This document shows, one piece after another, positions 20,272-47,795 of a stretch of DNA of 64,000 nt. The number at the start of each line of letters is the position of its first letter. Position 1 is the first letter of the stretch. The notes beneath the pieces are model-generated. The model was not told the DNA's origin. It saw only the letters and a program-made list of their open reading frames with translations, and did no database searches. Made by a program: the position numbers and the translations under genes. Origin of the DNA: Rhabdothermincola salaria (lineage in GTDB: Bacteria > Actinomycetota > Acidimicrobiia > Acidimicrobiales > Acidimicrobilacustridaceae); the NCBI RefSeq assembly GCF_021246445.1, contig NZ_JAJQXW010000001.1:1134168-1198167 (forward strand), in the 5' to 3' direction.

Positions 20272-20694
20272 TCAGCCCACGATGGGCAGGCCGGTCGCCT
20301 CGGCGGCTTCTCCGACCGATCCCAGATCGGTCAGGTCGGAGAAGCCGGCCTGAGCCATCTGGGCGACCGCCGCGGCCGAGCGGTTGCCGGACCGGCAGTA
20401 GACGACGGTCGGTGCCCCGGGATCGAGCGAGGCGACGGCGTCGGCGAAGTCCGGTGACTGCACATCGATGTTGACCGCGCCCTCGACGTGACCCTCGGCG
20501 AACTCGGCAGGGGTCCGGACGTCCACGATGACGGCGTCGCTGGGCACGGCCCGGGTGGAGCCGGCCGACGCGGCGGTCGAAGGGGTCGCCTCGGCGCCGG
20601 CGCTGGCCGAGGAGCCCTGGGAGCATCCGGTGAGCGCGAGCAGGAGGGCCACGGCGGCGGCGACGATGGCAAGGGGGCGACGAGGTGAGGGCAT
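20272..20694 (-). CDS. Rhodanese-domain lipoprotein (sulfurtransferase)
   Basis: A 140-residue exported lipoprotein: signal sequence with lipobox LTGC (Cys24), an Ala/Ser-rich linker, and a single rhodanese domain with VIVDVRTPAEFAEGHVEGAVNID and the active-site loop CRSGNRS. It should move sulfane sulfur via the loop cysteine on the outer face of the membrane. A perfect 14-base palindrome of CsoR/CstR type lies 40 bases upstream of the ATG, overlapping a TATATG -10-like sequence. Induction by persulfide, sulfite or copper is therefore likely. Confidence 0.92.
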   Translation of the reverse strand: MPSPRRPLAIVAAAVALLLALTGCSQGSSASAGAEATPSTAASAGSTRAVPSDAVIVDVRTPAEFAEGHVEGAVNIDVQSPDFADAVASLDPGAPTVVYCRSGNRSAAAVAQMAQAGFSDLTDLGSVGEAAEATGLPIVG

Positions 20695-20731: not shown

Positions 20732-20749
20732 TATACCCCTAGGGGTACA
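20732..20749. promoter_or_regulatory. CsoR/CstR-like operator before the rhodanese gene
   Basis: TATACCCCTAGGGGTACA contains the perfect palindrome TACCCCTAGGGGTA (20734-20747), the C-run/G-run inverted repeat bound by CsoR-family copper and persulfide repressors. It lies between the divergent rhodanese and AlkP-family genes, nearest to and probably controlling the rhodanese. A similar site precedes trxA at 47780-47795. No CsoR-family gene is in the window. Confidence 0.7.
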
Positions 20750-20804: not shown

Positions 20805-22403
20805 ATGACGAGGGTGCTGGCCATCTGGCTCGATGGCTTCGACATGGCCCTGGCCGACCGATGGAACCTCCCCTCGTTGGGCGCGCTCGCCGAGGAGGGA
20901 GCCTGGGCCCACCTCGACAACGGGACCGCCCACCTGAGCGGCCTCTCCGGCGAGCACCTGGTCACCGGCCTCGGCCCCGACGACGCCGGCCGGGCCAGCG
21001 CCGTCACCTTCGATCCCGCGACCTACGAGTGCCGCCAGGACGGCTTCCTCGTGGCACCGGCCCTGGGCGCCGTGCCCACGGTCGTCTTCGATCCCTGCTA
21101 CCTCGACCTCGACGCCTGCCCCCCGACCGTCACCGGCATCACCGACTGGGGGGCGCACGACCCGGGAGGTCCGCCCCAGGAGCGACCCGACGGGGTCCGG
21201 AGCGAGCTGCACGCACGGTTCGGCACCTATCCCGCTGCGCCGTGGGTGTACGCCACCCCGTGGGCGTCGCCGGCGCGCTGCGAGGCCATGGGCCGCGACC
21301 TGGTCGAGGCCGTCGATCGGCGGGCGCAGATCGCCACCTGGCTGCTCGGCGAGCGACTCCCCGACTGGCGACTGGCCCTGATCGGGGTGTCGGAACCCCA
21401 CAGCGCCACCGAGGGGTTGTTCCACGGCGTCGACCCGGAGCACCCGCTGCACGCCCACGCCTCGGCCCCTTCCGCCGCCCGGTCGCTGCGGGCCGTCTAC
21501 GACGCGGCTGATCGCCTGGTCGGCTCGCTGCTCGGCGCCTTCCCCGATGCCGTGCACGTCGTCTTCTCGCTTCACGGGATGGGCCGCAACACCAGCGACG
21601 TGACCACCATGGCCCTCCTGGGCGAGCTCCTCGCCCGGTGGTCGGGTCAGCGCACACCCGACACCGATTTCGCTCTCGATGCCCACGGCGTGGCCGTCCT
21701 CGGCGAGGACGAGAGCTGGTCGACCGCGGTGTCGACGGCGTTGACCCCACCGTCGGAGCATCGGCGTCCGCCCGTCTCGGCGGTGCGCCGCGCCGCCCGG
21801 CACCTGCCAGATCCCCTGCGGTCGGCGCTGCGCCGCCTGCGCGGCGCACGTCCGGCGCCGGGCCTCGAATGGATGCCGCTCCTGCGTCACCAACCCCGCT
21901 GGCCGGAGATGGCCGCGTTCGCCCTGCCCTCGTTCTACGACGGTCGGGTCCGCATCAACGTCAGGGGGCGCGAGGGGCAGGGTCGGGTCGACCCCGGCGA
22001 CTACGACCAGGTGCTCTCGGAGGTCGAGGAGCTCCTGCGTGGCTGTCGCGACCCGCGTACCGGTGGGCCGGCCGTGGGCGCGATGCACCGCACCGCCGCC
22101 GACCCCTTCGCCGTCGGCGTCACCGATGCCGACCTGGTCGTCGACTGGGCCGACGGCGTCTACGGACTGGACCACCCCGAGCTCGGCACCATCGGCCCGC
22201 TCCCACCCCGTCGAACCGGCGGCCACACCAGCCCCCTCGGCCGACTCCTGGTCCACGGCGACGGCATCGATCCCGGTGACCTGGGCACCCGAAGCTCCTT
22301 CGACGTCCTGCCGACGCTGCTCGACCTCAGCGGCGCCGCACCCCCGCACCGTCTCACCGGTCGGGCTCTGCGCGTCCCCCGGATCGGCGAGCCGGCGCCG
22401 TGA
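20805..22403 (+). CDS. Alkaline-phosphatase-superfamily hydrolase (phosphodiesterase/sulfatase-like)
   Basis: A 532-residue protein of the AlkP-like fold. Visible landmarks are the N-terminal metal-binding strand AIWLDGFDM, a likely nucleophile region HLSGLSGEHLVTG, GVSEPHSATEGLFHG with metal His, FSLHGMGRN and the C-terminal SSFDVLPTLLDLSG block shared by sulfatase- and phosphodiesterase-type members. The exact reaction cannot be told. ATG 20805 precedes the first strand directly. It diverges from the rhodanese gene and may share its control region. Confidence 0.78.
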   Translation: MTRVLAIWLDGFDMALADRWNLPSLGALAEEGAWAHLDNGTAHLSGLSGEHLVTGLGPDDAGRASAVTFDPATYECRQDGFLVAPALGAVPTVVFDPCYLDLDACPPTVTGITDWGAHDPGGPPQERPDGVRSELHARFGTYPAAPWVYATPWASPARCEAMGRDLVEAVDRRAQIATWLLGERLPDWRLALIGVSEPHSATEGLFHGVDPEHPLHAHASAPSAARSLRAVYDAADRLVGSLLGAFPDAVHVVFSLHGMGRNTSDVTTMALLGELLARWSGQRTPDTDFALDAHGVAVLGEDESWSTAVSTALTPPSEHRRPPVSAVRRAARHLPDPLRSALRRLRGARPAPGLEWMPLLRHQPRWPEMAAFALPSFYDGRVRINVRGREGQGRVDPGDYDQVLSEVEELLRGCRDPRTGGPAVGAMHRTAADPFAVGVTDADLVVDWADGVYGLDHPELGTIGPLPPRRTGGHTSPLGRLLVHGDGIDPGDLGTRSSFDVLPTLLDLSGAAPPHRLTGRALRVPRIGEPAP

Positions 22404-47366: not shown

Positions 47367-47735
47367 TCAGCCCTCGGTCTTCTCGTCGGCGATCTGCTGG
47401 TGCACCTGCTCCATGTCGATGGACTCGATCTGGCGGACGATGTCCTCGAGGGCCTGCTCGGGCAGGGCACCGGGCTGGCTGTAGAGCACGACCTTGTCGC
47501 GCACGGCCATCAGCGTGGGGATGGACTGGATCTGGAAGGCTCCAGCGAGCTCGGGCTCGGCCTCGGTGTCGACCTTGGCGAACACCACGCCCGGGTGGGC
47601 CTCGGAGACCTTCTCGTAGACCGGTGCGAACATCTTGCAGGGCCCGCACCATTCGGCCCAGAAGTCGATGAGGACGATGTCGTTGTCGTCGAGGGTCTGC
47701 TCGAACGTGTCCTTGGTCAGCGTGGTGGTCGCCAT
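47367..47735 (-). CDS. trxA: Thioredoxin
   Basis: A 122-residue thioredoxin with active site WCGPCKMFAPV and the cis-Pro loop SIPTLMAVRD. The C-terminal 20 residues extend beyond the usual end with a charged helix (DMEQVHQQIADEK). Reduces disulfides with thioredoxin reductase. ATG 47735 has GGAGGACC-like sequence upstream (complement of the GGTCCTC run). A CsoR/CstR-like palindrome 45 bases upstream suggests it answers to reactive sulfur or metal stress together with the rhodanese at 20.5 kb. Confidence 0.93.
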   Translation of the reverse strand: MATTTLTKDTFEQTLDDNDIVLIDFWAEWCGPCKMFAPVYEKVSEAHPGVVFAKVDTEAEPELAGAFQIQSIPTLMAVRDKVVLYSQPGALPEQALEDIVRQIESIDMEQVHQQIADEKTEG

Positions 47736-47779: not shown

Positions 47780-47795
47780 ATACCCAGTGGGGTAT
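47780..47795. promoter_or_regulatory. CsoR/CstR-like operator before trxA
   Basis: ATACCCAGTGGGGTAT, an imperfect palindrome (6 of 8 positions pair), 45 bases upstream of the trxA ATG. Sequence and distance closely match the site before the rhodanese gene (20732-20749). Confidence 0.62.

Follow-up and report, generated by a model that had tools for sequence, protein, structure and literature searches.

Two palindromes in a Rhabdothermincola salaria contig as predicted operators of one CstR-type repressor with a scattered reactive-sulfur regulon

Similar palindromes stand before a rhodanese-lipoprotein gene and a thioredoxin gene in the window, by which we mean the whole 64-kb stretch of DNA analysed here (C1:1134168–1198167), and this arrangement raises the question of whether one repressor controls both genes and which signal it answers. 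The first-pass annotation had placed a palindrome before each gene, and we found both there. TACCCCTAGGGGTA lies at 20734–20747, inside the 16-mer ATACCCCTAGGGGTAC (20733–20748), 38–39 bases upstream of the rhodanese-lipoprotein ATG (20694, minus strand), and ATACCCAGTGGGGTAT lies at 47780–47795, with the thioredoxin ATG (47735, minus strand) 44 bases further on. A divergent gene that adjoins the same intergenic region as the 20733 palindrome is a possible second target of that site. The features concerned are as follows.

20272–20694, minus strand: rhodanese lipoprotein (Pfam Rhodanese; CRSGNRS loop and LTGC lipobox, assigned by reading)
20733–20748, no strand: operator-like palindrome ATACCCCTAGGGGTAC, upstream of the rhodanese lipoprotein and 56 bases from the ATG of the divergent gene
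20805–22403, plus strand: divergent gene, phosphodiesterase/phosphatase-like by reading
47367–47735, minus strand: CstR-linked thioredoxin, 122 aa (TIGR01068 over cut-off; WCGPC)
47780–47795, no strand: operator-like palindrome ATACCCAGTGGGGTAT, exact 16-mer, upstream of the thioredoxin

Within the window, TACCCNNNNGGGTA with at most one mismatch matched 4 times compared to 0.41 expected, a count reached in 0 of 100 shuffles, and its only exact matches were the rhodanese-lipoprotein and thioredoxin sites. The perfect form TACCCCTAGGGGTA with up to three mismatches gave 3 matches, and because 4 of 100 shuffles equalled this number, the similarity of the two sites is weak evidence when judged within the window alone. 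Across the whole genome (3.9 Mb, 7 contigs), the core TACCCNNNNGGGTA occurred at 9 places compared to 4 for its reversed control, and the extended form ATACCCNNNNGGGTAT (ATACCC-N4-GGGTAT) occurred 7 times exactly and 11 times with at most one mismatch, compared to 0 for the reversed control. Independent bases would give 0.07 exact and 3.3 one-mismatch places for this form, versus 7 and 4 observed, which puts the exact sites ~100-fold above expectation. An exact form common across the genome would have counted against the original proposal, and it is not common here. The four one-mismatch-only sites (rhodanese lipoprotein, SulP, MerE-like, and TauE) do not exceed the number expected by chance; their case rests on gene function and conservation. 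When the spacer between ATACC and GGTAT was left free at 3–9 bases, 7 of 7 matches in this genome had a 6-base spacer, and the control had none.

We give almost no credence to the idea that the palindromes arose by chance, or are promoter or terminator elements without a common regulator. The one-mismatch count does match expectation, and the 3′ half of the palindrome can resemble a −10 box, but exact sites in this genome exceed expectation 100-fold, reversed controls were 0 in all 41 genomes compared below, and the sites go with one repressor type and recur at homologous promoters. For the set of sites, single one-mismatch sites excepted, chance origin is ruled out by the exact-site excess, the zero controls, and the fixed 6-base spacer. 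As to the promoter, a TTG at 17-base spacing occurred in 6 of 34 hand-picked sites versus 0 on the other side, and a −10 element test on the same sites did not tell the two sides apart, giving only a hint that the operator lies between −35 and −10.

Sulfur and thiol-redox genes follow most of the sites in this genome, which mark about ten scattered units on two contigs. Outside the window, these sites are as follows.

C1:103129: before a rhodanese
C1:112542: before a DUF302 protein
C1:469784: before a nitrite/sulfite reductase (Pfam NIR_SIR; no NCBIfam model reached its cut-off) 107 bases away, with a glycosyltransferase-like gene 144 bases away on the opposite side
C1:1125401: before the CsoR-family repressor gene itself
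C1:1706282: before a type III sulfide:quinone reductase (SQR; NF049943, 574.7 bits versus a cut-off of 525)
C1:1983218: between a DHA2 (MFS) efflux gene and a cytochrome P450 (L008)
C2:77156: before a MerE-like small membrane protein
C2:304092: before SulP, with a second, two-mismatch palindrome 23 bases upstream
C2:356627: before a TauE-family transporter

SulP and the genes downstream of it form a run on one strand, with the SulP site at its head. The run includes a rhodanese match (C2:306655–306930) and a carbonic-anhydrase-like stretch, assigned by reading, and ends in a protein with a metallo-beta-lactamase fold and a rhodanese domain (C2:307230–308600). This last protein is 63% identical to a counterpart under an exact site in a relative (G005), and its domain make-up predicts a persulfide dioxygenase; no NCBIfam persulfide dioxygenase model reached its cut-off against it. 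There was no copper pump among the targets scanned in this genome. Site C1:1983218 is the only exact one without an evident sulfur target. Separately, the SQR (L007:191–1426) exceeds the cut-off of the NCBI selenoprotein subtype model and is in frame without an internal stop.

The first-pass annotation had placed the responsible repressor elsewhere in the genome. A CsoR-family gene without the copper histidine is indeed encoded ~8.8 kb ahead of the window's first position, and a perfect site stands 75 bases upstream of the gene's start.

C1:1125074–1125298: predicted CstR-type repressor gene

This gene is one of two CsoR-family genes in the genome, the other being on C4. Its product matched PF02583 (DUF156/Trns_repr_metal) with 77 bits (cut-off 22.8) and, as a profile, matched chains 7mq1 and 7mq3 (E ~2e-15), which we take to be CstR structures; the copper CsoR chains 4m1p and 4adz scored higher. 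Cys35 and Cys64 are present in this protein and the copper-binding histidine is absent. The Cys-His-Cys copper pattern occurs only in the C4 protein, whose gene has no site and whose closest NCBIfam model, RicR, fell below its cut-off.

We compared this genome with 40 relatives. The resulting 41 genomes held 52 CsoR-family matches, namely 30 His-type genes (including 2 fragments and 2 that are only 37–41% like the C4 gene), 21 intact no-His genes in 20 genomes, and 1 broken gene. All 21 intact no-His genes retain C35 and C64 and have Gly at the His position. A site with two or fewer mismatches lay upstream of 18 of these 21 genes, compared to 0 of the 30 His-type genes; the three no-His genes without one belong to G016, G019, and one of the two copies in G014. 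In a tree built with no characterised CstR, the branch that divides no-His from His types, with 44 no-His rows to one side and 33 rows to the other, had support of only 68. The no-His gene of G036 (L152) appears broken, and G036 has no exact sites.

Exact sites occurred in 20 of the 41 genomes, 76 in total when summed over genomes, and the reversed control gave 0 in each. Sites and intact no-His repressor were both present in 19 genomes and both absent from 20, with a site only in 1 and a repressor only in 1 (Fisher p=1.6e-9). The site-only genome, G008, has one exact site and a fragmented assembly in which we found no no-His repressor, and the repressor-only genome, G028, has only one-mismatch sites, at the repressor gene. 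We also collected repressor loci from named genomes, chosen by repressor alone (80 kept of 569 confirmed), which overlap the 41-genome set in that at least L186, L190, and L203 look like G006, G028, and G017; the nearest loci come mostly from Acidimicrobiales/Acidimicrobiia and Actinomycetes genomes. A site with at most one mismatch was present in 59 of 64 no-His loci (42 before the repressor and 17 elsewhere in the locus, with none in 5), compared to 0 of 16 His-type loci; the 64 include two that also lack the second Cys.

These comparisons bear on a copper regulon, in which the C4 CsoR would bind the palindromes and answer Cu(I). This genome does encode a Cys-His-Cys CsoR, and palindromic operators with G/C runs are common in the CsoR family (PMC10318464). 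We nevertheless consider a copper regulon very improbable: the counts for His-type genes and His-type named loci are both zero, exact sites are missing from genomes without a no-His gene except G008, and the targets scanned here are sulfur genes. On the absence of sites at His-type genes and loci we rejected this candidate, and Cu(I), the alternative inducer left open at the outset, is disfavoured. We consider it highly likely instead that a single CstR-type repressor (CsoR-family, cysteine-only), the product of C1:1125074–1125298, has both window palindromes as its operators, and that they belong to a scattered, persulfide-responsive regulon.

To follow the thioredoxin site into relatives, we grouped genes with at least 54% identity to the window protein, which gave 14 genes from 13 of the 41 genomes, the next matches being at 48% or below. 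Twelve of these 13 genomes also carry the no-His repressor. A site with at most one mismatch lay 25–92 bases upstream of 12 of the 14 window-type thioredoxins, this genome's own included, whereas none of the 17 other thioredoxins examined in the 41-genome set had a site within two mismatches (p=6.4e-7); the two window-type genes without a site are those of G030, which has no repressor, and G027, which has one. The 80 named repressor loci, selected without regard to thioredoxins, provide independent evidence: 11 contained a thioredoxin match, of which 9 were of the window type (50–64% identical to it and 37–46% to ordinary TrxA). In all 9, a site lay 5–78 bases upstream; 6 of these sites were exact and 3 had one mismatch. 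The remaining two thioredoxins had no site within 100 bases. Named genomes with a window-type thioredoxin under the operator include Amorphoplanes, Actinoplanes, Microbacterium, and two Dormiibacterota records, and the gene order is thioredoxin–repressor–DUF302 in L184 and thioredoxin–repressor in L213 (Amorphoplanes nipponensis). In G003, the repressor gene stands back to back with another thioredoxin gene, and the two share one site. The gene at 47735 had been called trxA; it does encode a thioredoxin, but a second, divergent one, the ordinary trxA being beside trxB on contig C2.

The ordinary trxB-trxA pair has a two-mismatch site 28 bases upstream of trxB. We surveyed trxB at 30 loci from the 37 genomes with a match (G010 was unreadable there) and found the upstream site to be exact in G004 and G022, with one mismatch in G006 and two in this genome; the remaining loci, G001 and G014 apart, had no site within two mismatches. 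With sites at so few of the 30 loci, we rejected trxB as a general target. In G001 (L276) and G014 (L278), reading revealed a palindrome with one extra spacer base before trxB, at the place of the exact operator of G004 and G022, which may reflect slightly flexible spacing or decaying sites.

Homologues of the rhodanese lipoprotein (E ≤1e-14) numbered 10 in 9 of the 41 genomes. A site with at most one mismatch was upstream of the gene in 6 of 6 repressor-bearing genomes (this one included; two sites exact), compared to 0 of 4 homologues in repressor-lacking genomes. Gene starts are alignment-based estimates, which makes the site distances, 17 to 105 bases, approximate. Since the 12 promoters compared had been chosen for having the site, the 94% conservation of its fixed columns carries no weight; the informative result is that the surrounding sequence, at 46–48%, is not conserved. 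Both window sites therefore recur before homologues in repressor-bearing genomes and are absent before the few homologues from genomes without the repressor. This recurrence, together with the sulfur and thiol-redox targets, supports the earlier suggestion of a reactive-sulfur regulon that includes an exported rhodanese and a thioredoxin.

We examined 68 of the 69 exact sites of relatives, in 66 stretches, leaving out one G039 site. Codon-score gene calling missed or underscored many sites, mostly in lower-GC relatives, and there we read the genes by hand. By reading, 30 of the 68 sites lie before dioxygenase, repressor, thioredoxin, trxB, rhodanese, TauE, or DUF302 genes, 23 lie before recurrent families without a known sulfur link (MMPL 7, nitroreductase-like 4, YgaP-like 4, MerE-like 3, an unknown membrane protein 3, and small Cys-rich 2), and for 15 no target is evident. 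L059 and L060, both counted among the MerE-like sites, look like a single site, since they are the two ends of one contig.

Several of these recurrent families have features of their own. The MerE-like gene lies 9 bases past a site in this genome and in G029, and also follows one in G005 (L059/L060). Its product has a CPCHLP motif and scores over the PF05052 cut-off in both L020:1162–1491 (the C2:77156 site) and L103; it may transport sulfane sulfur or thiols rather than mercury. A short Cys-rich protein (CKKCGRPSWAGCGAHVEQVL...RCQC) recurs directly past the operator or beside the repressor in L048, L079, and L106, with matches in named loci too (for example L187, L199, L201, L202, L206, L208, L234, and L235); the one scanned, from L079, had no Pfam match. 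MMPL-family exporters occur under the operator or beside the repressor in L055, L067, L080, L083, L087, L095, L100, and L105, and in L189, L190, and L198.

Binding, repression, persulfide as the inducer, and the enzyme functions are assigned here by homology, and the following scheme is proposed on that footing. The reduced repressor would occupy ATACCC-N4-GGGTAT near each promoter and block its own gene and about ten scattered units. A build-up of persulfide or polysulfide would modify Cys35, perhaps linking it to Cys64 of another protomer, and the repressor would leave. Its release would allow joint expression of an oxidising arm (SQR, rhodaneses, and the predicted persulfide dioxygenase), of transporters (TauE, SulP, and MerE-like), and of a reducing arm consisting of the dedicated thioredoxin and perhaps also trxBA. 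We are evenly divided on the fuller version of this scheme, in which the persulfide sensor opens the oxidising and reducing arms of sulfane-sulfur disposal together, the reducing arm has its own thioredoxin lineage that would strip sulfur from proteins and reset the sensor, and the MerE-like, MMPL, and small Cys-rich proteins are further new members.

The same repressor and operators could serve a different natural signal, general disulfide or electrophile stress or HNO, rather than persulfide. A pair of reactive cysteines can respond to many oxidants, HNO also acts on S. aureus CstR by way of a C31–C60′ disulfide (PMC5480029), and the targets include thioredoxin, thioredoxin reductase (G004/G022), and perhaps, in relatives, a peroxiredoxin (288 bases away) and Dps. 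We think this signal improbable, although less so than copper, given that the frequent targets are dioxygenase-rhodanese, rhodanese, and TauE genes, with SQR in this genome, and that polysulfide is the signal for an actinobacterial homologue that has the same motif (PMC7533328). Persulfide remains our preferred inducer.

A reactive-sulfur regulon of this kind would be testable genome-wide in a group represented here mostly by metagenome-assembled genomes. The sensor-linked thioredoxin lineage could be a dedicated depersulfidase, and recurrence under the same operator offers candidate functions for the DUF302, MerE-like, and small Cys-rich proteins. The literature accessible to us, mostly without subscription papers and in part only, contained no report of such a regulon in Acidimicrobiia, nor of CstR acting on a cytosolic thioredoxin. 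Three features appear to be new: a dedicated thioredoxin lineage that stands under a CstR-type operator, a regulon this wide and this scattered, and MerE-like, MMPL, and small Cys-rich members that recur.

Among known systems, copper CsoR/RicR proteins share the fold family of the C1 repressor, which lacks their Cys-His-Cys site. S. aureus CstR is, like the C1 protein, a two-cysteine CsoR-family member; it is a persulfide sensor with C31 and C60 (PMC5480029) and acts on the cst operon via two operators (PMC9426444). CstR homologues often repress rhodaneses, sulfite exporters, and SQR (PMC10318464). Unlike the regulon proposed here, CstR targets are usually near the CstR gene, and the parts of these papers available to us describe no thioredoxin target. 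The dispersed sulfur regulon of TTHA1953, a CsoR-family protein of Thermus thermophilus, counts a thioredoxin (SoxW) and a methyltransferase among its members; unlike the C1 repressor, TTHA1953 controls Sox genes through the motif TACNNTACNNNNGTANNGTA, and its effector is described as unsettled (PMC10318464). Thioredoxins of Streptomyces answer sulfane sulfur through AdpA, and E. coli TrxC does so through OxyR (PMC9952706). The first-pass annotation's view that CsoR-family sensors act on such palindromes agrees with ScCsoR (SCO0620) of Streptomyces coelicolor, an actinobacterial sulfane-sulfur sensor that binds the same sequence, ATACCn6GGTAT, and leaves when polysulfide modifies Cys37; it controls its own gene together with those for a persulfide dioxygenase, a rhodanese, and a sulfite transporter (PMC7533328). 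The system described here resembles that one in its CsoR-like repressor, in two cysteines 29 apart (Cys37 and Cys66 in ScCsoR), in the ATACC-N6-GGTAT operator, and in its sulfur targets. Unlike the four-gene ScCsoR circuit, the predicted regulon is scattered over two contigs and adds SQR, DUF302, a nitrite/sulfite reductase, SulP, a MerE-like protein, and a dedicated thioredoxin.
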